Assembly: GCF_014876775.1 (NCBI RefSeq)
Contig: NZ_CP062310.1
Location: 1 to 64,000, forward strand
Direction of reading: 5' to 3'
DNA length: 64,000 bases
Source of the DNA: Infirmifilum lucidum
GTDB lineage: Archaea; Thermoproteota; Thermoprotei; Thermofilales; Thermofilaceae
Positions within the stretch are counted from its first letter, which is position 1. Each line of letters opens with the position of its first letter. The notes under the pieces are model-generated. The model was not told the DNA's origin. It saw only the letters and a program-made list of their open reading frames with translations, and searched no databases. Made by a program: the position numbers and the translations under genes. Below, piece by piece: positions 13,114 through 42,074 of the stretch.

Positions 13114-13410
13114 CTACCGACCGTGTTCGCCGACAGACTCCAGGAGCTCGACGACTTCTTTGTGCCCCATCGCCCTCGCAAGGTCTAGGGGCGTCCTGCC
13201 ATCATTGTCCCTGGTGTTTACGTCTGCACCCCTATCCAACAGCAGCCTCGCGACCTCCAAGTGCCCACCGTCAGCAGCATAGTGTAGCGGTGTCCAGCCA
13301 TACTTGTCCCTGGTGTTCACGTCTGCGCCCCTGTCGAGTAGTTCTTTTACCTTCCCGTAGTCGCCCCTCGCCGCCGCCTCCAGCAGTTCCCTGTCTACCG
13401 GGCCCTGCAC
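13114..13410 (-). CDS. Small ankyrin-repeat protein
   Basis: 98 residues and nearly all ankyrin repeat: VKELLDRGADVNTRDKYGWT, PLHYAADGGHLEVARLLLDR, then GADVNTRDNDGRTPLDLARA and GHKEVVELLES. Roughly three repeats are present, each with the DGxTPLHxAA and hairpin pattern; such proteins bind other proteins. Start is GTG 13410. About 30 nt upstream on the minus strand is a TATA, GTTTATATGC. The promoter and leader are almost identical to those of the larger ankyrin gene at 60204, so the two are paralogs that kept their control region. Confidence 0.85.
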   Translation of the reverse strand: MQGPVDRELLEAAARGDYGKVKELLDRGADVNTRDKYGWTPLHYAADGGHLEVARLLLDRGADVNTRDNDGRTPLDLARAMGHKEVVELLESVGEHGR

Positions 13411-15862: not shown

Positions 15863-16294
15863 ATGAAGCGGAGAGCAATATCGCCCGTAATAGCGACGCT
15901 ACTACTCATAGTAATCGCAGTCGCAGCGGCAGTCCTAGCCTACATATGGATCATAGGCTACCAGGGCACGCTCACGCAGCAGGCCAGCGCACAGCAACTC
16001 CAAGAGAAGATAAAGATCGAGGCCGTCAGTTATTCAGCAGATACAAATACTCTTAGTGTATATGTTCGAAACATCGGGGATATTAGTGTAACAATTGCTA
16101 GCGCATACGTTCTAAACCCAAGCGGGACAGCCATAGCTACAACTGACTTTACTTCAAATAATGAGCTGCAGCCAGGACAGCTTCTAGGGTTCTCTATAAC
16201 AGGCGTGTCGTTGCAACCAGGTTATACCTACGTTGCTAAGGTTGTCACTAAGAGCGGCACTGAGGCCACGTACACCTGGACTTACAGGACTTAG
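15863..16294 (+). CDS. Archaeal type IV pilin / archaellin-like protein
   Basis: 143 residues. The N-terminus KRRAISPVIATLLLIVIAVA is a textbook class III signal: basic residues, Ala as the likely cleavage border, then the hydrophobic assembly helix. The remainder is a beta-rich DUF1628-like domain. The mature subunit would be processed by a PibD/FlaK-type peptidase and polymerise on the cell surface; no secretion ATPase or peptidase is in this window. The TATA at about 15824-15833 (TTAAACATAT) gives a near-leaderless ATG 15863. Codon use in its second half is more AT-rich than its neighbours. Confidence 0.85.
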   Translation: MKRRAISPVIATLLLIVIAVAAAVLAYIWIIGYQGTLTQQASAQQLQEKIKIEAVSYSADTNTLSVYVRNIGDISVTIASAYVLNPSGTAIATTDFTSNNELQPGQLLGFSITGVSLQPGYTYVAKVVTKSGTEATYTWTYRT

Positions 16295-16340: not shown

Positions 16341-16978
16341 ATGTCTAGCGGGCTCTCCCCGGTAGTCTCGGCCCTCCTCCTAGTCCTGGTCGCGGTGGCC
16401 GGGAGCGCTCTCCTCTACTTGCTTGTCTCTGGCTTTAGGCCAGCGCCAGGCGGGTCTTTCTCCCTGCTGAAGGTCGAGGGTGTTGGGCTTGAGGGCGGGC
16501 TCGTCGCATACGTCAGGAACCTCGGCGAGAGGAGGGAGGTCGTGGACGCCGTCTACGTCTACGACAGCTCGGGCAGGCTTGTCTGGCACGCGAGCGGGCT
16601 GGGGCTAGCCCTGGAGCCTGGGGGGCTCGCTAGAGTCCCCTTGAACGCTAGCAGGCTGAGGGCCGGCGAGAGGTATAGTATCGAGGTTGCGGGTGCTAGC
16701 GGTGTCGTCGCTTCAGGGTTTAGCTTCGTGTTTACGGGCGGCTACCCTGTCTTCGGGGTTACGGGGTACAACTCCTCGATTACAGGGCCGCCTGGGGGCA
16801 GGGCTAGGCTTGTTGTTACAGTCAGCAACGTGGGGCTCCTGCAGGGTTACGGCCAAGTACGGGTCTATGACCACACGGGTAGCACGGTCAACACGACCGG
16901 CATTGCCTTGGGCCCCGGTAGCCAACAGACAGTCGTCCTCGACGTTGTCCTCCCTGCGTCGAGCGGGACTGTTACCTC
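16341..16978 (+). pseudogene. Pilin-type surface protein, 5' part (split by IS607)
   Basis: Starts MSSGLSPVVSALLLVLVAVA, a class III-like signal with the hydrophobic helix, followed by CARDB/beta-sandwich-like repeats. The frame runs to SSGTVTS and then enters the insertion element, where it stops within seven codons. The missing remainder continues at 18968 in the same phase. Joining 16978 to 18968 gives an uninterrupted 516-residue protein. As it stands only a 212-residue truncated product could be made, still with the assembly helix and two beta domains. Confidence 0.85.
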
Positions 16979-16998
16979 GTTTGAATGTTTACGATAGG

Positions 16999-17035
16999 TT
17001 TTTATATTTGGGCTTTTTTGGTTTTTTTGGTTATT
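16999..17035 (+). repeat. Left subterminal inverted repeat and tnpA promoter of the IS607 element
   Basis: The segment has TTTTTATATTTGGGC followed by two TTTTTTGG-type blocks. Its counterpart at 18905-18938, read on the minus strand, is TTTATATTTTGATTATTTTG plus GCTGTTTTGG. The TATATTT core is placed about 30 nt before the tnpA GTG, so this copy also acts as the tnpA promoter. The repeated TTTTGG blocks are plausible binding sites for the TnpA helix-turn-helix domain. Confidence 0.55.
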
Positions 17036-17037
17036 TC

Positions 17038-17667
17038 GTGGAGGAGAGGTTGTATAAGGTGAGCGAGGCGGCCAAGCGGCTGGGCATTTCGCGGGTCACT
17101 CTCAGGTCTTGGATTAGGCAGGGAAAAATCGCCGCTAAGAGGGTTGGTAAGCTCTGGATGATCCCCGAGGGCGAGATAATCCGCATACTGGGTGGAGGGT
17201 CTCCTGAGGGCGGGCGCGCGGTAATCTACGCTAGAGTCTCCAGTAGGAAACAAGAAATTGATGGCGACCTCGAACGGCAGGTGGAGAGGCTTAGACTGTA
17301 CGCCTCCGCGAGGGGGTATAAGGTCGTGGGCGTCGTGACTGATGTGGCCAGCGGGCTCAACGAGGATAGGGAGGGTCTTGAGAGGGTCATGGAGATGGCC
17401 AAAGCCAAGCAATTCGATATTCTCCTCGTGGAGTTTAGGGACAGGCTCGCCCGCTTCGGCTTCGAGTACTTGAGGAGGTACTTCGAGGCCTTCGGTGTGA
17501 GGGTGGAGGCCGTTGAGGAAGGCGAGGAGAAAAGCTATATGGAGGAGCTCGTTGAGGACTTCGCCTCGATAATTACCAGCTTCGCTGCCGAGATATACGG
17601 GAAGAGGTCTAGGAAATTTCAAGAAGTCAAGAGGTACGTGAGGAATGTTATTGGAGAGAACGATTAA
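17038..17667 (+). CDS. tnpA: IS607-type transposase TnpA, serine recombinase
   Basis: About 209 residues. The N-terminal MerR-like helix-turn-helix is LYKVSEAAKRLGISRVTLRS; the resolvase domain begins AVIYARVSSRKQ, where Ser of RVSS is the nucleophile, and continues with DILLVEFRDRLARFGFEYL, holding conserved catalytic Arg residues. The protein catalyses cut and rejoin through a Ser-DNA link. Start GTG 17038 fits the TATA at 16999-17010; a TTG at 17050 is the alternative. The longer open frame upstream (from 16687) lies in the pilin gene and is not part of it. Its end overlaps tnpB by 23 nt. It appears intact. Confidence 0.92.
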   Translation: MEERLYKVSEAAKRLGISRVTLRSWIRQGKIAAKRVGKLWMIPEGEIIRILGGGSPEGGRAVIYARVSSRKQEIDGDLERQVERLRLYASARGYKVVGVVTDVASGLNEDREGLERVMEMAKAKQFDILLVEFRDRLARFGFEYLRRYFEAFGVRVEAVEEGEEKSYMEELVEDFASIITSFAAEIYGKRSRKFQEVKRYVRNVIGEND

Positions 17668-18934
17668 GCTGAAGCTGGTACCGCTCGATACGGAGAGCAG
17701 GAGGCTGTTGCATGATTTGCTCAAGAAATACGCCGAGTTGCTGGCCGAGGCTCAGAGGCTCGTCGTAGAGCTGGACATTAGGAGCGTTAAAAGGGCCCAT
17801 GAGGCGTTATATAAGCTCTTGCGGGAGATGCACCGCGAGCTCCACAATAAATACGCCGAGGAGGCCTACAGGAGGGCCTTGGCCAATTACCGCTCGTACC
17901 TAAAGCTCAAGAGAAAATGGGAGAAGAGATTGAGGAGGCTAGGCTTCGAGGAGCCGAGGCCGCCCTCGGCCGAGGGCAATAAGGTCATCGACCTACATAT
18001 TTCCGCATTCCGCTTAAGCCCCCCTCTGTTGGAGGTATCTTACGGCGGCGGGAAGACCATGAAGTTCTTGGCGATGCCGAACCCCCTCTTGGCCAAATAC
18101 GCCGGGTGGCGCATCGGCAACTCGAAAATCCTAGTGGACAAGGGAAGCGCGTACTTGTTCCTAACGGTTAGGCGGAATGTTGAGCCCGAGGCCCGTCCCA
18201 ATAGGATATACGTCGACGTCAATGAGTCCAGCATCGATTTGCTTGTTGCCGATTGGGGGCACGGCCTCGGCCTATTCTTAAGCGTGATGCATGAAGGCAA
18301 GGAGATCAGGAGGAGGTACCGCATCTTAAGGCGGAGTATTCAGAAGAAGGTGCGCGAGATAAGGAGAAGGAATCAGCTCCTCAGAAAATACGGCAAAAGG
18401 GAGAGGGAGAGGGTGAACCAAGCGGTGAGGAGGGCCGCCAAACTCATGGCCGACTTGGCGCTGGCGTATAACGCCGACGTGGTCGTGGAAAAGCTCAAGG
18501 ATGTGACTTGGAGGCCTAGGGGCAATGGCGAGCTGAACTATCGCTTGAGGAGCCTCCCCTACAGGAGGATCGTGGAATCGATAAGGGATAAGGCGGCGGA
18601 GCGCGGGGTAAGGGTTCTCGAGGTGGACGCCAGGAATACGTCGGTAGAGTGCCCTATTTGCGGCCACGCGGACAAGAAGAACCGGAAGTCCACTACAGAG
18701 TTCAGGTGCACGAAGTGTGGCTTCGAGCTGCACGCCCAACTAGTCCCCACGGTAAACCTGGCCCGCAGGTGTGAGGGCGTAGTGGCCAGACCCGCGGGCC
18801 AGGAGGCCCTCCTAACTCTCGAGGAGGCCCCAGTGGTGTCCTCCGGTGAAGCCCCCCATGACCCGGTGAACCATGACCCGGCGAGGGGGAAGGCCCTGCC
18901 TGTACCCAAAACAGCCAAAATAATCAAAATATAA
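17645..18934 (+). CDS. tnpB: IS607-associated TnpB, third RuvC Asp replaced
   Basis: 429 residues. TnpB proteins are RNA-guided nucleases that help transposons persist. The RuvC residues are Asp191 (IYVDVNESSIDLL), Glu282 (VVVEKLKDV) and, at the third position, Gln365: the segment ELHAQLVPTVNLARR aligns with ADRDLIAALNI of the second TnpB in this window, putting Gln where the catalytic Asp belongs. The zinc ribbon C336-C339-C355-C358 (CPICG, CTKCG) is intact. A Pro-rich tail of about 55 residues follows. Nuclease activity is doubtful; the guide RNA would be expected from the 3' end and beyond. Confidence 0.9.
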   Translation: MLLERTIKLKLVPLDTESRRLLHDLLKKYAELLAEAQRLVVELDIRSVKRAHEALYKLLREMHRELHNKYAEEAYRRALANYRSYLKLKRKWEKRLRRLGFEEPRPPSAEGNKVIDLHISAFRLSPPLLEVSYGGGKTMKFLAMPNPLLAKYAGWRIGNSKILVDKGSAYLFLTVRRNVEPEARPNRIYVDVNESSIDLLVADWGHGLGLFLSVMHEGKEIRRRYRILRRSIQKKVREIRRRNQLLRKYGKRERERVNQAVRRAAKLMADLALAYNADVVVEKLKDVTWRPRGNGELNYRLRSLPYRRIVESIRDKAAERGVRVLEVDARNTSVECPICGHADKKNRKSTTEFRCTKCGFELHAQLVPTVNLARRCEGVVARPAGQEALLTLEEAPVVSSGEAPHDPVNHDPARGKALPVPKTAKIIKI

Positions 18935-18938
18935 AGCA
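18905..18938 (-). repeat. Right subterminal inverted repeat of the IS607 element
   Basis: Minus-strand counterpart of 16999-17035: TTTATATTTTG, then TTATTTTGG and CTGTTTTGG blocks. It overlaps the last codons of tnpB, including its stop. Because it carries a TATA core facing inward, it could also start an antisense transcript across tnpB; that is inference. Confidence 0.45.
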
Positions 18939-18967
18939 GGGCCGACCACTTATAAGTGGAGTATTTC

Positions 18968-19880
18968 AGTGTGGAACAACGTTACGGGCAGGCTTGACGA
19001 CTCGAAGACCGTGACTGTCTGGGTGTCGGCGGGTGGGCTCAGGCTGGCGAGTAGGTCGGCTGTTTACTACGACACCTTCGACTCCAACCCCCTCGGCTCC
19101 AGCCTCCTGCCGCTCTCGTGTAGCTGGCAGTACGACGGTGCCGGGAAGCTCGTCTACGTGAGCGTTACCTCGAGGCCCAGTAGCTACGGCGGGGAGTGCA
19201 TAGCGAAGATAGGCAACATTAGGGTGGAGGGGAGGGTGTACGTCGCAGCCGTCCTCAGCTACGTGTCCAGCGATAAGAGTGGTAGAGACCACTTCGGCGC
19301 TATCCTGCTCAGCTCGGGCACCGGGTACTTCTACGAGGCAGGCTACACTAGGCCGAACTTCTACAGGGTGTGGAAGTATGCCGGCAATTTCCAGGAGCTG
19401 GCTCAGGCACCAGTTACTGGCAGCGTCGACGAGAACGTGTGGTACGACCTCGTGGCGCTCTATAGTGCTTCGGGCGGGGTCATAGAGCTGTGGGCTTCAG
19501 GGAGCCGGAGAGTGTCCATAGCTGATGCCTCCATAAGTGTCGACTCCCTCGGCGTGGGGGCGTACGTGTACAAGGGGGCCCTGACCGTGTACTTCGACAA
19601 CCTCGTCGTGGCCTTGGGCGCTAGGCCGTGGTTTGTGAACGTGACTGGGCTCCAGCAGGGCTGGGTTGCCAGGATAAGGGCTGGCTCCGTCACTGTCTCG
19701 AGCGCTGTTGCCGGGGGCGGGGGCGTGGCGTCAGTACTGCTGTGGCTCTCTAGTGCTGGCAAGGACTACGCGTTCATAGTTAGAGGTGCCGTGCTCGAGG
19801 TTCTCGACTCTAGCGGTAATGTAGTCGCATCGCTGGGCCCCGTGGACGTGGTGGGCGGGGACGTGTACGTGTATGGCTAG
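18968..19880 (+). pseudogene. Pilin-type surface protein, 3' part (split by IS607)
   Basis: Continues the reading frame of 16341-16978. From VWNNVTGRLDDSKTVTVWVS the protein has a beta-rich body containing a LamG/concanavalin-like segment (about FDSNPLGSSLLPLSCSW to YFDNLVVALGARP), as often seen in surface adhesins or glycan-binding domains, then a short Ig-like end. No stop or frameshift is present. A GTG at 18969 could start it, but without a signal sequence the product would stay inside the cell, so it is most likely silent while the element is present. Confidence 0.8.
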
Positions 19881-19925: not shown

Positions 19926-20237
19926 GTGAACCTAGAGGAGGCTCTGCGCGAGGCCGTCGAGGAGTTCAACAGGTACCACGGCTCCGAGGGGAGGGCTAGA
20001 GTGCTGAGGGTGGAGGGGGACAGGTTCGTGGTGGAGTTCAGGGGTAGCTTCTGCGTGACTTGCGGCTTCTACGACTACTTCGAGGACTTCGCCTACCTGC
20101 TCGCGGGCAGGGGTTTCAGGGCTGGCGTAGTCTCTGTAGACGAGCTAGAGGACGGGGCAGTCGTAGAGTACAGGCTTTTAAGGGAGGGGGAGGAGTGGCG
20201 CTTCACGCCTGAGCGCGTCGTGTTGATACTCGAGTAG
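19926..20237 (+). CDS. Small hypothetical protein with CVTCG motif
   Basis: 103 residues, alpha/beta pattern, no membrane segment. A FCVTCGFYDYFEDFAYLLAG section holds a CxxC pair that could bind metal or be redox-active. TATA ACTTTATATTTC (19892-19903) sits so that transcription starts at GTG 19926, a leaderless start. It follows the split pilin by 45 nt and is convergent with the DUF4143 ATPase. Family unknown to me. Confidence 0.65.
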   Translation: MNLEEALREAVEEFNRYHGSEGRARVLRVEGDRFVVEFRGSFCVTCGFYDYFEDFAYLLAGRGFRAGVVSVDELEDGAVVEYRLLREGEEWRFTPERVVLILE

Positions 20238-20265: not shown

Positions 20266-21528
20266 CTAGCCTGTCTTCAGCGTCGCGAGGAATACTGGGG
20301 TGCTGTCCCTGTCGAGCGTGAGCGTCTTGAAGGGCTTCCTGCCCCCGGGTGGCCTCTTCCTCCACTTGACCTCGAGGCCCAGCGGCCTGCCGTTGACTAC
20401 GGCTACAGCGTCTACTTCTGTCTTGTCCCTCCAGTAGTACGTCGGGTAGGCTCTCGCGACGTGCGAGATAACCGTAGCCTCGACTACTCCCGGCTCGTCG
20501 ACCTGTACCCGGGTGTAGTGAGAGAAGACCCTGTACAGGAATGGATCCGTGAAGACCACTTTCTTGTTCTTCCTGTAATCCGGCCTGCCCGAGGTGTCGG
20601 CCCAGTGCACCACTCTGGCTAGCATTAGCTGCTCGAGTGTCTCCACGTACTCCCTGGCAGTGTTCGGCGAGGACACCGAGGTACTCTTCGCGATTGAGTG
20701 CCAGCTCACAGGCGTCGGTGTAGTCTCGAGTATGTAGGATACGACCTCCTTCATCGCGTTCTCGCTCTTGCCAGCCCTCAGCCAGTCTGCCCTCACCCAG
20801 TCTAAGTAGGCTTTGATAGAGGCGTAGGTGACTCGTCCCCTCTCGAAGAACTCGCGGATTGGTATCGGGAAGCCCCCCGTCTCCAGGTAGGACTGGAAGA
20901 GCTCCTGGAGGCGCCCCGCGTACACGGAGTTAGCTCTTAGACTCTCCTCGAACAACGTAGAGTCATCGAGCCCGGCTGTCCTGAGTTCTAGCCCGCTGAA
21001 GTGCCTGGCGTAGTCCGAGAAAGAGAGGGGGTACATGTAGACGTCCCTGCCGCGGCCCCTCCTGCCCGGGAACATCTCCTTGCCTGCTACGAGCTCCACG
21101 CTGGCTGAGCCTGTCACAACTAGGACGTCGTTCTCGAACAAACGAAGGTCTATCCTGGACTTCAGTGCCCTGAACCACTCCTCGACGAAAGTGACCTCGT
21201 CCAGGAGTATGACGGAGCTCTTCACGCCCCACGCCCGCCTCGCCGAGATATAGCCGTCTAGCACTTCCCCGAGCTCCTCGTAGTCCGACAGCTCGTCGCA
21301 CGAGTAGTAGAACACTGACTTCGGGTCTCTCCGCTCCAGGAGCCTGTGGACTAGTATCTTCAGCGCGGTCGTCTTCCCGACCTGCCTAGGCCCGACGAGG
21401 AAGTTTAGGGAGTAGGGCTCTAGTGATATCTTCTCAATCTCGCCCGGAACCCACTTAACCCTGGCTCTCCTCCACTCCTCGTACACCGGGTCAGGTTCTT
21501 TCAGCCACCACGGGTTATACGACTCCAT
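20266..21528 (-). CDS. Archaeal AAA ATPase with DUF4143 domain
   Basis: About 420 residues. Walker A GPRQVGKTTALK, Walker B SVILLDEVTFVEEW and a sensor-like VLVVTGSASVEL, then a winged-helix segment (SWHSIAKSTSVSSPNTAREY) and an endonuclease-like DUF4143 end with VDAVAVVNGRPLGLEVKWRK. That Asp, Glu-x-Lys pattern resembles PD-(D/E)xK nucleases. Members are multiplied in archaea, with roles that are not settled (mobile elements, defence). Two ATGs (21534, 21528) are possible; TATA GTTTATATAAC (21558-21548, minus) puts the transcript start near 21528. A perfect inverted repeat lies between TATA and start. Confidence 0.88.
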   Translation of the reverse strand: MESYNPWWLKEPDPVYEEWRRARVKWVPGEIEKISLEPYSLNFLVGPRQVGKTTALKILVHRLLERRDPKSVFYYSCDELSDYEELGEVLDGYISARRAWGVKSSVILLDEVTFVEEWFRALKSRIDLRLFENDVLVVTGSASVELVAGKEMFPGRRGRGRDVYMYPLSFSDYARHFSGLELRTAGLDDSTLFEESLRANSVYAGRLQELFQSYLETGGFPIPIREFFERGRVTYASIKAYLDWVRADWLRAGKSENAMKEVVSYILETTPTPVSWHSIAKSTSVSSPNTAREYVETLEQLMLARVVHWADTSGRPDYRKNKKVVFTDPFLYRVFSHYTRVQVDEPGVVEATVISHVARAYPTYYWRDKTEVDAVAVVNGRPLGLEVKWRKRPPGGRKPFKTLTLDRDSTPVFLATLKTG

Positions 21529-21536
21529 GTGCATTG

Positions 21537-37506: not shown

Positions 37507-38994
37507 GTGGAGGACAGTCGTCGCCGCGTAAACGACCCGTCTAGCTACCTCTGGACTGTGCTGTCAGTGACAACTCTTGGGGCATTCATGGCAGGCCTAG
37601 ACACTAGAGTAGTTGTTGTAGGCCTTGACAGGGTTGCAAGTGCCCTACACGCGGACATAGAGCAGGCACTCTGGTTTACGCAGGCGTACATGCTCGGGGG
37701 CACCCTAATGCTCCTGTTGGTTGGCAGGCTCGCAGACTTATTTGGCCGCGTAAAGCTGTACCTAGCTGGTTTCGCCGTATTCACCCTCGGGTCGCTTCTA
37801 TCAGGGCTGTCGCCCAGCCCGGCGGCGCTAATAGCGTCACGCTTCATCCAGGGGCTGGGAGGGGGCATACTGACTACTGTGAGCGCGGCAATTGTGACGG
37901 ACGCAGCCGTTTACGGTCCGCTAGCTTTTGCACTCAGTATAAACTCCCTCGCCTTCAGGCTGGGCTCAATTCTAGGCTTGACCCTTGGAGGGGTTATAAT
38001 CGGCCTCCTTGACTGGCGCTACATATTCTGGATAAATGTACCCGTGGGGGCTCTCGCCATACTGTGGGGCACTAGGGCTCTTCGAGAAACCTACAGGCCC
38101 GTGGAGCAGAAGAAGGTAGACTGGCTGGGGTTCCTGCTCTTCACGGCCTTCATTTTCACAGCACTAGTAGCGCTGACCCTCGAGGGCTATGGGCTGTCGT
38201 ACAGGAGGCTGGTTGGCATAATGGCCCTAGTGTCTGTAGCATTACTGGCCGCCTTCACGGTGTGGGAGCTAAGGTTCCACAGCCCCCTGCTAGACCTAAG
38301 GCTGTTCAAGAACTGGGGCTTCACGGGGGGCGTAGTTGCACAGTTCCTGAACGCGATAGCTTTCGGCTCAGTCATGCTCCTCCTGACGCTATACTTCCAG
38401 CTGTGCAAGGGAGCGCCGCCTGCAGAGGCGGGCTTCACGTTGCTGCCATTTGAGCTCGCGTTCCTGGGCTTCAGCCTCATAAGCGGGAGACTCGCAGACA
38501 AGTACGGCTACGTAGGGTTTGCAATTGCTGGTCTCTTCGTGGGCAGCCTGGCCCTCTTTATACTGTCGGGGATAACTCTAGAAACACCCTACTGGAGCGT
38601 AGCCCTAGGCGCCGCCGTGCTAGGCGCTGGGAACGGGCTGTTCATGTCGCCGAACACGAGCGCGATAATGTCCTCGGTGCCAGAACACAGGAGAGGAGTG
38701 GCCTCGGCGCTCAGAAACGTGCTGTTCAACCTCGGCTTGACAATAAGCCTCAACATCTCGGTTCTCCTGCTCTCTAAGCGGCTCTCCTACGAGCTCATAA
38801 CGAGGCTACTCCTGAACGCGGAGCTCGACGCCACCCAGATAGCCGCAGGCAGGCGCTCCCTGGCGCTAGCAATAGGCGAGGCATTCAAAGTCCTAGCGAC
38901 CATTAACTTGACAGCCGCCCTGTTCTCCGTGAGCCGCGTTGAAGCAAGACTGCCGGAACGGCGTCCTAGCTTCTCCACCCGTGAGTCCCCATGA
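37507..38994 (+). CDS. MFS multidrug exporter, DHA2 (14-helix, EmrB/QacA) type
   Basis: 495 residues with about 14 hydrophobic helices. GRLADLFGRVKLYLAGFAVF is the loop 2-3 motif A of the major facilitator superfamily, and ASRFIQGLGGGILTTVSAA is motif C-like of drug:H+ antiporters. Exports hydrophobic compounds using the proton gradient. GTG 37507 is the start; AT-rich sequence (AAAAATTTTTAGCC, 37472-37485) precedes. No regulator is adjacent. Confidence 0.88.
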   Translation: MEDSRRRVNDPSSYLWTVLSVTTLGAFMAGLDTRVVVVGLDRVASALHADIEQALWFTQAYMLGGTLMLLLVGRLADLFGRVKLYLAGFAVFTLGSLLSGLSPSPAALIASRFIQGLGGGILTTVSAAIVTDAAVYGPLAFALSINSLAFRLGSILGLTLGGVIIGLLDWRYIFWINVPVGALAILWGTRALRETYRPVEQKKVDWLGFLLFTAFIFTALVALTLEGYGLSYRRLVGIMALVSVALLAAFTVWELRFHSPLLDLRLFKNWGFTGGVVAQFLNAIAFGSVMLLLTLYFQLCKGAPPAEAGFTLLPFELAFLGFSLISGRLADKYGYVGFAIAGLFVGSLALFILSGITLETPYWSVALGAAVLGAGNGLFMSPNTSAIMSSVPEHRRGVASALRNVLFNLGLTISLNISVLLLSKRLSYELITRLLLNAELDATQIAAGRRSLALAIGEAFKVLATINLTAALFSVSRVEARLPERRPSFSTRESP

Positions 38995-39014
38995 AGGCGC
39001 CTCAATATGCCCGG

Positions 39015-39470
39015 CTACTCCAACACGTCTCTCGGGTGCTGGACTTTAACCCCAACAGTCCTCTCTATTGAGTCAGCTCTCCCCAGAATTTCGCTGTCTC
39101 CTGTAATGAACGCTACTACGTTAAGCTTTCTTTTGAGCGCTTTCGCGTAGGCCAGGTGTAGCACGTCGAGAGTCCTGAGCCTGAGAGGCCCCGCCAGTTT
39201 ACAGGCAAGATGGTACTCTAGGCCTGTCCTGAGCCTGTAACCCGCGATATTTGCAACTGCAGTGTAGCCCGTAGAAAGGATGTGGAGCCTACAGTCCCTG
39301 ACTATGAATTCCACCAGAGTGTCTAGCAGGGGCTCTGAACGAAAAGGGACTCATCTTTGACTCTCGAAAGGGCGCAGTAGAGCTCGACGAGCGTTAGTGG
39401 AGATGCTATAAAGTACAGGTCTTTTTCCGAACAGTGTGTTAGAGTAGTTATAAAGGTCATCTGAAGGTTT
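39015..39470 (-). pseudogene. PIN-domain (VapC-like) toxin, frameshifted and N-truncated
   Basis: The 99-residue open part contains TLDVLHLAYAKALKRKLNVV and FITGDSEILGR, the third and fourth acidic motifs of a PIN nuclease. Upstream on the minus strand, in another frame, comes EKDLYFIASPLTLVELYCAL SR-type sequence with the second acidic motif, ending at TAG. One missing base in the CCCC run near 39330 explains the break. The first strand with the leading catalytic Asp is absent; the TnpB element begins about 20 nt beyond. Its likely partner vapB is on the other side of that element. Confidence 0.65.
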
Positions 39471-39487
39471 GTACCTAGCGATGATTA

Positions 39488-40760
39488 CCACTGAAAGCCT
39501 TGCCCTTCAGGGCGGGGATGCCGGCAAGCTTAAATACTCCCCCACTCCGTGAGGGGGGTGTGGGGAAGGCCAAGGCCGGGGGACGGGCAAGTGAGGGGCC
39601 GGAGACCATTGTCACCCTGGTCTACAAGGTCTCCCCCGAGCCCTCCCTCCTGGCCTTGGCCGATCGGTACACGCAGGGGCTGAGGTACGTACTACACTGG
39701 ATTAGGGAGCACAAGACCACTCGCCTGGGCGAAGTGCACAGGGGAGTGTACGAAGCCCTCAAGGAGAGATACGGCCTGCCCTCCAAGATGGCGCAGGACT
39801 GCTACCGCCACGCAATCGCGGTGTACAAGGGCTGGCTGAGGAACCCGCACAAAGGCGAATTCCCCACGGTCAGGCGGAGGGCCGTGTGGCTGGCGCATAA
39901 ATACAGCTATTGGCTAAAGGGGGGTGTTGTGCATATAGCCGCCATAGGCGATATACCGGTCATCGGCAGGCCGGGCCACGAAATGCAGTACGCCGACTGG
40001 GAGCCGGGGGACGCCGTTCTAACGGTCAGAGAGGACGGCGTATTCCTGCACGTGCCAAAGGCCAAGGCCGTCCCCCCGATTGGGGCGAAGGACGCCGTCG
40101 GCGTCGACGTGAACTACCGAGAAGTGGCCGCGGCCACGTCTATGGAGGACTCAATACGCCTGGAGACGCGCATAGAGGACGCGGTACGCGTCCGCCGCCA
40201 CGCGGAGGCCCTTCAGCGGAGGCACGGCAGGAGCTGGAGGAGGAGGCATAAAGTCCTCGCTAGGATCCGCAAGTTATACAAGCGCTCTAGGAACATCTTG
40301 CTCGACGCCGCCCGCAAAATAGGCAAGAAGGTGGCCGAGTACGCCCTCGAGAGGAAGGCGAAAATCAGGATGGAGGACTTGAACGGGCTAAAGAGGCGCG
40401 CCCAGGGGGCCCCGAAGGAGTGGAGGCTCCGCCTGGCGTTCCTGGCCTACCGCGAAATACAGCACTGGATAGCCCACCAGGCCAGGAAGCGCGGCGTGCC
40501 AGTAGAGTATGTACCGCCGGGGGGCACTTCGTCGAGGTGCCCGGTGGACGGCCACAAGCTGGCCGAGGCCAGCTATAGGACACTGCGTTGTCCAAAATGC
40601 GGCCTCGCCGCCGATAGGGATCTGATAGCCGCCCTAAATATACGGATGGGGGGACTTCTGACGGCCCCGACTGCCCTCCCATTGACGGATGAAGCCCCGA
40701 CCGAGGGAGGGAACCTCCCCGCCCGAGGAACCCCCGCCCTTTAGAGCGGGGAGGACGTCA
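39488..40760 (+). mobile_element. IS200/605-type element with tnpB only
   Basis: Single-gene element of about 1.27 kb. The left end has CCCTTCAGGGCGGGGATG and the right end CCCTTTAGAGCGGGGAGGAC, the related end hairpins typical of this group, with no inverted repeats. The flank on the left is GATTAC, a plausible target/TAM of the usual T-rich type. No TnpA is present, so mobility would need one elsewhere. It separates vapB (40741-41010) from the broken vapC (39015-39470), and its right end now supplies the last codons and stop of vapB. Boundaries are accurate to about 10 nt. Confidence 0.75.
39560..40744 (+). CDS. tnpB: TnpB RNA-guided nuclease (stand-alone)
   Basis: About 394 residues. The RuvC triad appears complete: Asp in GVDVNYREVAAATS, Glu in IRMEDLNGL and Asp in AADRDLIAALNI. 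The zinc ribbon is unusual: CPVDGH then CPKCG, with Asp at the second Cys position. Start is taken at GTG 39560 because TATA CTTAAATAC (39529-39537) leaves the upstream in-frame codons untranscribed. The C-terminal tail DEAPTEGGNLPARGTPAL overlaps the element's right end, from which the guide RNA is expected. Confidence 0.9.
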   Translation: MGKAKAGGRASEGPETIVTLVYKVSPEPSLLALADRYTQGLRYVLHWIREHKTTRLGEVHRGVYEALKERYGLPSKMAQDCYRHAIAVYKGWLRNPHKGEFPTVRRRAVWLAHKYSYWLKGGVVHIAAIGDIPVIGRPGHEMQYADWEPGDAVLTVREDGVFLHVPKAKAVPPIGAKDAVGVDVNYREVAAATSMEDSIRLETRIEDAVRVRRHAEALQRRHGRSWRRRHKVLARIRKLYKRSRNILLDAARKIGKKVAEYALERKAKIRMEDLNGLKRRAQGAPKEWRLRLAFLAYREIQHWIAHQARKRGVPVEYVPPGGTSSRCPVDGHKLAEASYRTLRCPKCGLAADRDLIAALNIRMGGLLTAPTALPLTDEAPTEGGNLPARGTPAL

Positions 40761-41010
40761 GTAGCTCGACAGCAGACTTGCCTGACCTAATCGTAAAGGG
40801 TACTAACCCAGCTTTCCTCCTCTCCTCCAGAGCCCTTAGAAGCTCCTCCGAAACACCGGCGCCTTCGCTTGCAAGTTCGTCGGCTTCAACCTCGAGCCTC
40901 AGCAACTCCTCTACCAAGCTCTTGAGGGTTGTCCCCCTCTTCACTGAGAGAATCTTGGCTTTCTTCCAGAGCTCCGGGTCTACCCTTATCGAAGTTACTT
41001 TCTCTTTCAC
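40741..41010 (-). CDS. RHH antitoxin-like (VapB), 3' end altered by the TnpB element
   Basis: 89 residues. TSIRVDPELWKKAKILSVKR and GTTLKSLVEELLRLE form a ribbon-helix-helix DNA-binding fold, followed by an acidic helix as in VapB antitoxins. The last residues TSSPL and the stop come from the right end of the neighbouring mobile element, so the original C-terminus, which should bind the toxin, has been replaced. Reading on the minus strand, the element sits between it and the PIN remnant. It may still act as a repressor. Confidence 0.75.
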   Translation of the reverse strand: MKEKVTSIRVDPELWKKAKILSVKRGTTLKSLVEELLRLEVEADELASEGAGVSEELLRALEERRKAGLVPFTIRSGKSAVELLTSSPL

Positions 41011-41213
41011 AAGAGTTCAGCTTTAAAGTATTATTTAAATTTTGTTTTTAAATGAAGAACTTCACTAAGGATTGCGCTACCACGGAACGTAGCAACAACC
41101 CCCAGGTAGCGTTTCTGATCCGCGTTCTCCAGTAAGGGTGGAGCGTCGTGTCTGCTTGAGGAGCGTAAAGTATAAACCGCTGTTTCTGCAACCCGCTTTT
41201 CTGTAGGTGCCCC

Positions 41214-42074
41214 GTGGTGGACGCTGAGCGTGTCAAGCGCGTGCTAATCTTCTCGTCGGTCGGGAACGCCGCTATAAGTTTCCTGAAGATATTTGGGGGG
41301 ATAGTCTCGGGTAGCACTGCTCTCCTCGCTGACGGGAGCGACTCCATGCTCAACGTTGCTAGCGCCGCGGTCAGCTACTGCTACTACTCGAGGAGCCTCA
41401 AGCCCCCGGACGACAGGCACCCCTACGGGCACACGCGCTTCGAGGCCTACGGGTCTATAGTGATACTCCTCCTTATGGCTGTCACGTTCAGCTTCATAGG
41501 CTTCACGGCCCTAGACCGCTTCAGCCATGGCGAGCCCGAGAAAGTGTCCCCGATTGGGGTAGCCTTCGCGGTGCTCTCCCTCCTCCTGAACCTGGGAGTC
41601 TCCAGCCTCCTCAGGGCGTACGGCAGGGGTAGCCAGATAGCGCTCACAGAGTCGAGGCACACGAGCCTGGACGTCGCAGAAGGAGTAACCACGCTCGCCG
41701 GAGTGACCCTCGGCTCTACGGTCTCCGCGTACTTCGACCTCGCAGCCACCGTAGTGATACTGGGCATCGTGGCGTTCTTCATCTACGGGACGCTACGCGA
41801 GCTCCAGGGGCAGATTATCGACACGAGCCCGCCCCCCGAGATCTTGAGGGCAATCGAGGAGGAGGCCCTCAAAGTCAGGGGCGTTAGGGGCGTACACTCG
41901 CTCAGGGCTAGAGTCGCCGGCGACAAGATATACGCAGACTTACACCTCGAGGTGGATCCCAGGCTCCCGGTCGACGAGGCACACGAGCTGTGCGACCACA
42001 TCGAGAGAGCTGTTAGCGCCAGGCTCGGCGGCAGAGTCGACCTCACGATACACGTAGAGCCCTCTAGCGGCTAG
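41214..42074 (+). CDS. Cation diffusion facilitator (CDF) metal transporter
   Basis: 286 residues: six hydrophobic helices then a cytoplasmic ferredoxin-like domain. Metal-site pattern LLADGSDSMLNVASA in helix 2 (Asp-x-x-x-Asp) and SRHTSLDVAEGV in helix 5 (His-x-x-x-Asp), plus DRHPYGHTRFE between helices, mark a CDF exporter of Zn, Mn, Fe or similar. The C-terminal metal-sensing part has EEALKVRGVRGVHSLRARV. GTG 41214 is the start. It ends 11 nt inside the convergent pcp gene. Confidence 0.93.
   Translation: MVDAERVKRVLIFSSVGNAAISFLKIFGGIVSGSTALLADGSDSMLNVASAAVSYCYYSRSLKPPDDRHPYGHTRFEAYGSIVILLLMAVTFSFIGFTALDRFSHGEPEKVSPIGVAFAVLSLLLNLGVSSLLRAYGRGSQIALTESRHTSLDVAEGVTTLAGVTLGSTVSAYFDLAATVVILGIVAFFIYGTLRELQGQIIDTSPPPEILRAIEEEALKVRGVRGVHSLRARVAGDKIYADLHLEVDPRLPVDEAHELCDHIERAVSARLGGRVDLTIHVEPSSG

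Follow-up and report, generated by a model that had tools for sequence, protein, structure and literature searches.

We analysed a window of 64,000 nucleotides, the first 64 kb of the 1,625,846-bp single-contig genome of Infirmifilum lucidum, in which a pilin-type gene is split by an insertion sequence (IS) of the IS607 family. Two half-genes, both open and listed as open reading frames (ORFs) 16341-16997 and 18969-19880, flank a tnpA/tnpB pair. The halves are parts of one protein with no other lesion. The element between them occupies 16970..18949 on the plus strand (1,980 bp, including the right copy of its crossover dinucleotide, AC), as placed by a junction test and by comparison of its ends with those of related elements.

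The first gene of the element, tnpA (17038..17667, plus strand), encodes 209 amino acids, with an N-terminal helix-turn-helix (HTH) of the MerR/excisionase type, a C-terminal serine-recombinase domain and an intact YARVSS motif. TnpA matched the IS607 model NF033518 (E 1.2e-55, 188 bits, cut-off 110), its domains being HTH_17 (PF12728) at residues 5-51 and Resolvase (PF00239) at 61-197, and its best structural match was the TnpA of ISC1926 (6dgc, E 2.7e-39). The second gene, tnpB (17645..18934, plus strand; 429 amino acids), overlaps the end of tnpA and lies downstream of it as in the IS607 family, and its product scored 105.6 bits against NF040570 (cut-off 100). These matches confirm the family assignment of an earlier note on this DNA. 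ISC1926/ISC1904 (archaeal members of the family), IS607 and IS1535 share with the window element a serine transposase with an N-terminal HTH, the order tnpA then tnpB, and the lack of a target duplication. The family is also characterised by short repeated motifs inside the ends, to which TnpA binds; as candidates for these, copies of TTTTGG at the left end and of CCAAAA at the right end were noted by eye.

The left part of the interrupted gene (16341..16970, plus strand) holds 210 native codons, coding for an archaeal pilin-type N-terminus and then most of a CARDB-like domain. The N-terminus scored 19.4 bits against arch_flag_Nterm (TIGR02537), slightly below the cut-off of 20, and residues 1-137 are 64% identical to the orthologue in the congeneric genome G001. 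From this half-gene, translation reads through into element bases 16971..16997 on the same strand, which add eight codons and a TAG stop (16995-16997). The right part (18951..19880, plus strand) holds 309 native codons and a stop, and is 52% identical to the G001 orthologue. It is weakly lectin-like, with a sub-threshold match to Laminin_G_3 (PF13385; E 0.0022, 18.6 bits, cut-off 27.6) and no other domain match. Among eight scanned relatives, some had sub-threshold CARDB or above-threshold InlB-B-repeat matches. Because of the pilin-like start, the weak Laminin_G_3 match and these matches in relatives, the product is likely to be a surface protein; that it serves as an adhesin would be a guess.

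We searched for orthologues in 61 genomes, the window's own included, and found matches to the right half in 9 and to the left half in 31. G001 and G006, which belong to the same genus as the window genome, each carry both halves within one open frame (705 and 368 amino acids, respectively), and the element is absent there. The gene order at these loci is conserved, as seen for a dehydrogenase-like gene (82%), the upstream pilin gene (61-65%) and the gene at 19926 (85-88%), and several paralogues are also continuous through the joint. Thus, the insertion into a once-intact pilin-type gene, as proposed in the earlier note, is confirmed. Because the CARDB-like segment that holds the insertion is missing from the G006 protein, this protein is evidence for the uninterrupted gene and not for the joint itself. 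When the window halves were compared with G001 and G006, the ratios of nonsynonymous to synonymous substitution rates (dN/dS) were 0.21-0.43, with no sign of relaxed decay.

Apart from the insertion, the lectin-like half of the orthologues (L069 7057-9171 and L070 6592-7695) was found to diverge fast between G001 and G006, with a dN/dS of about 1.0. Together with the CARDB-like segment missing in G006, this amounts to domain-level variation of the surface protein.

The joint was located with a profile of eight homologues, from which the window gene was excluded. Left ends at 16940-17000 were combined with right starts at 18930-19000, and 752 distinct open in-frame products were obtained from joints no more than about 30-40 bp away from the ends; 129 of them had at least two exchangeable end positions (counted on products, a number that synonymous codons inflate slightly). 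The highest score, 128.6 bits, belonged to the joint through a shared ACT (16968-16970 = 18948-18950), which contains the left AC copy at 16968..16969 and the right copy at 18948..18949. Removal of the corresponding 1,980 bp leaves GGG-AC-TTATAAG and gives a product of 210 + 309 = 519 codons that reads ...SSG-T-YKWSISVWNN.... At this site the homologues carry a motif of constant spacing, LPxxxGTYTWTIKVKNxxTGxYDD, which is fitted by the in-frame reading upstream of the right half, TTYKWSISVWNN. The predicted empty-site sequence across the AC joint is GGGACTTATAAGTGG, with GCGTCGAGCGGGAC-TTATAAGTGGAGTATTTC to the left and right of the joint, and the predicted restored joint sequence is GGGACTTATAAG.

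The earlier note had placed the crossover at TC. Deletion of 1,989 bp between TC at 16977-16978 and 18966-18967 does give an open frame of 516 residues, as it had stated, but this is not the true joint. It ranked 302 of 752 with 108.7 bits, and it retains 8 bp of the element (16971-16978) while losing 17 bp of the gene (18951-18967), so that the reading TTYKWSISVWNN is discarded, YKW of the motif is gone and a three-residue gap against the homologues results. The TC joint was unreliable because it had been chosen for restoring the frame, which is a property of all 752 products. Accordingly, the crossover, the length and the product were corrected to AC, 1,980 bp and 519 codons. The correction matters for polymerase chain reaction (PCR) and read mapping, in which a TC-based probe would miss real empty sites.

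Two other features near the joint were considered and set aside. A GG crossover in the window (GGG 16965-16967 with GGG 18939-18941) gives SSGPTTYKW, which is open and lies outside the top 15; it was ruled out because it is two residues longer than the spacing fixed in 8/8 homologues. The palindrome CCACTTATAAGTGG at 18946-18959, which spans the right joint, was taken as chance because four of its bases belong to the element or the core.

The element ends were then compared across 13 related elements (window, L079, L080, L102, L156, L155, L108, L111, L151, L153, L154, L152 and L104). Same or near-identical contigs were dropped (L101 = L079, L110 = L080, L103 = L102, L107 = L108, L105 = L156, L106 = L155), as was L109, a partial match in which no ends were recognised. 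AC stands at 12/13 left ends, as read by eye, and is preceded by G in 12/13. ACC|AC was found at all 11 right ends that could be located; none was found for L152 and L104, because their contigs are too short. A whole-element alignment of L079 with L080, in which no pattern was used, stops at the same right-end base.

A second insertion gave the same answer. L102 is a related element in another archaeon, inserted in a different gene. Its AC joint leaves the frame open and reads KTYAEWWGQHGDMTRNY (EWWG-QHGD), and it aligns gap-free with the uninterrupted homologue in L165, which reads KTFAEFYGQHGNKVRSY (EFYG-QHGN). Towards its end, L165 itself contains stops. This joint was the best of 712 open joints (451 versus 445 for the next). 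The letters shared at the joint are ACAA in L102, ACT in the window and AC across the lineage. Since the AC joints of both the window and L102 match uninterrupted homologues without a gap, there is no target-site duplication.

According to PMC6188088, IS607, IS1535 and ISC1926 terminate in GG, and the target sites of IS607 and ISC1926 are likewise GG. We also found GG at both ends in another archaeal IS607 group (L096, L097, L099, L100). GG termini are true of most members of the family but not of all, so they are not strictly defining, and in the window lineage AC stands instead. Because most described IS607 elements terminate in GG, the AC crossover is, as judged from the sequences, a variant within the family. 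In our literature search, with sources available in part, we did not find a paper describing an AC core. As an event, the insertion is commonplace; of greater interest are the AC crossover and the altered TnpB of the lineage (described below). AC was established at two separate insertions by comparison with uninterrupted homologues, and it offers a contrast to GG for the study of dinucleotide choice by a serine transposase. As a separate observation, one genome (G029; L083-L086, L089) carries at least five IS607 copies, 85-92% alike, with ends GCCTC... and ...AACCC and no clear GG core; in L083-L086, neither AC nor GG is clear.

Taken together, we consider it highly probable that an IS607-family element with an AC crossover inserted without target duplication into a once-whole pilin-type gene, and that precise reversal is possible in principle. 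Several points weigh against this interpretation or narrow it. Joints one or two residues away from the AC joint scored 128.5-125 bits, a margin of 0.1 to about 3 bits. By itself, the protein profile therefore leaves an uncertainty of a few bases; AC is fixed by the element ends and by the second insertion in L102. One left end has AT (E6, the decayed element in L108). The right-end count of 11/11 is not fully independent, because the search pattern, 12-13 bases long with up to one mismatch allowed, held ACCAC. In the majority of described IS607 elements the dinucleotide is GG and not AC (PMC6188088). Finally, both halves are open and dN/dS is not raised, which indirectly suggests that the insertion is recent, as the earlier note had supposed; however, the dN/dS test is weak for a recent insertion, because nearly all divergence from G001 and G006 is older than the insertion.

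The course of events is best explained as follows. A single element of the AC-using lineage entered GGG-AC-TTATAAG without target duplication. The left half ends after 210 native and eight element-coded residues, inside the CARDB-like domain, and the right half is deprived of its signal sequence. The outcome would be an insertional knockout in which both halves are still intact. In excision, TnpA should cleave the DNA at the dinucleotide, free the element as a circle and rejoin the two parts of the gene, and AC x AC recombination would restore the uninterrupted 519-codon gene. The predicted circle joint runs from the right end, ...GCCGACC-AC-, into the left end, TGTTACCTCG.... Precise excision, which the earlier note had also proposed, is thus plausible in principle for a serine recombinase; a circular-intermediate model of IS607 excision has been described in PMC4058570, where the evidence for the circle is a personal communication.

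The element is a single copy: neither other copies nor short relics of it were detected in the 1,625,846-bp genome. Its G+C (guanine plus cytosine) content of about 0.53-0.59 is below that of most flanking windows (about 0.60-0.65), although the upstream pilin gene has a still lower value, 0.47-0.51. The nearest TnpA relatives are 57-63% identical and occur in other families or orders. A scan of genome contigs with the window TnpA as sole query gave no match, and viral contigs gave one partial match to relatives of the element, which was not used. Because of the lower G+C content and the distant hosts of the nearest relatives, a horizontal arrival of the element fits these sequences.

We then examined TnpB. 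Alignments showed that the window protein keeps D191 and E282 of the RuvC domain and has Q365 at the third position in place of Asp; the C4 zinc ribbon (TNB domain) is present (PF07282, E 3.4e-15). The third position had a letter in 52 of 66 aligned rows (window counted twice), namely 29 Asp, 13 Gln and 10 His. In the window lineage, the 13 rows with a letter comprise 8 Gln and 5 His. The G029 group has Gln in 5/5 and a third group (L133, L134, L139, L140, L142) has His in 5/5. Thus, three separate archaeal IS607 groups are without the third RuvC Asp, all keeping tnpA, which raises the question of whether the role of TnpB there needs cutting. Because Asp is replaced by Gln or His, the nuclease of the window lineage, an enzyme that ordinarily brings an excised element back, may have changed or lost its activity. 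In related nucleases, His can serve. The structure model of TnpB has a mean pLDDT (predicted local distance difference test) of 66.7 and falls below 50 from residue 365 on, so it is uninformative at the third position.

A hairpin, GGCCCTGC...GCAGGGCC, with a GACC tail lies at the right end (18892..18947, plus strand) and probably forms the 3' portion of the scaffold in the TnpB guide RNA. In an alignment of 11 elements it has 8 pairs, of which three show compensatory changes on both sides; for two of these three, the changes occur in the window element. The z-score of the single-sequence fold was only -1.05, and an Rfam scan of the right end gave no match over the gathering score. From TnpB biology, the candidate guide position would be 18950..18971 (plus strand), in the stretch of the gene that borders the right end of the element. 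The only exact match in the genome to the 16 bases from 18948 is the site itself. Other genome matches to the guide had three mismatches (16 places including the site, control 9).

These features bear on a first alternative, in which a TnpB guide taken from the flank of the gene (from about 18948 or 18950 on) directs TnpB to bind or cut the empty site. Cells that have lost the element by excision would thereby acquire it again, and the split would be effectively permanent. Retention of this kind is a described role of TnpB (PMC11870625), and tnpB stands here with a conserved right-end hairpin, a guide position directly in the gene and a candidate guide that is unique in the genome. However, Gln replaces the third RuvC Asp in the window protein, and Gln or His does so lineage-wide, so cutting may be lost, and the guide RNA itself is read from sequence. 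Such retention is a tentative possibility, which we regard as rather unlikely.

It may also be that TnpB no longer cuts the empty site but sits on it, binding and perhaps silencing the gene restored by excision. The element would then be a two-step silencer, in a lineage that recombines at AC with a Gln/His TnpB and is still mobile. Cas12m2, with a non-canonical triad, binds without cutting (PMC10442227), and nuclease-dead TnpBs act as repressors (PMC13418256). The latter, termed TldR (TnpB-like nuclease-dead repressors), resemble the window TnpB in the loss of a RuvC catalytic residue and in the guide-RNA anatomy that is kept. In contrast to it, they are freed from the transposon and have no tnpA (PMC13418256); the window tnpA is intact, the element looks mobile, and there is no domestication beside a host target gene. 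We consider silencing of this kind improbable.

The earlier note had further proposed an on/off switch. For this, excision and reinsertion at this site would have to be frequent enough to make the surface protein phase-variable within a population. TnpA looks intact, both half-genes are undamaged and excision is thought to reseal host DNA (PMC4058570). Moreover, sites of IS607 have been seen both occupied and empty, by reads and PCR, in single stocks of Helicobacter pylori, as in the heterogeneity of strain SS1, where an IS607 element likewise interrupts genes (PMC5358919). In ISAba13 phase variation an IS also interrupts a gene for a surface trait, and scarless excision restoring the capsule was observed (PMC9038732). 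However, the site in the window is known in the inserted, occupied state alone, from one assembly with one copy of the element, and everything seen fits a one-off insertion, since any such IS insertion results in the same configuration. Given the near lack of target specificity described for IS607 (PMC4058570), renewed insertion at this AC would be unexpected; it would require a target preference. Nor is there a sign of a long-lived association with the genus, because a match to IS607 tnpA at E 1e-3 was found in 0/6 of its other genomes. A switch is therefore very improbable here, and a mixture of occupied and empty sites in a culture, though possible, would reflect mobility, not regulation.

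The remaining alternatives are hardly credible. The TC joint is open and in frame, yet it costs three conserved residues and the related elements end elsewhere. That the halves were never one gene, or that the gene was dead before the insertion, had no supporting point and is opposed by the two syntenic uninterrupted orthologues (one without the CARDB-like segment), by the paralogues that span the joint and by the absence of another lesion.

Other features of the window were also noted. The upstream pilin gene (UpsA-like; 15863..16294, plus strand) scored 39 bits against TIGR02537 and matched the UpsA model at E 5.8e-14, below its cut-off; it adjoins the split gene in both orthologous loci. 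On the minus strand at 20266-21534, an AAA/DUF4143 ATPase gene adjoins the split gene, and no match to it was found in the syntenic regions of either G001 or G006; it matched the candidate defence model PDC-S01 at E 3.7e-30. A second TnpB gene at 39500-40744 has the third RuvC Asp intact; no recognisable transposase was found near it among ORFs of at least 110 amino acids overlapping 38500-41500, and two further TnpB loci lie elsewhere in the genome. A small ankyrin-repeat-like ORF of 98 amino acids was recognised by eye at 13114-13410 on the minus strand.

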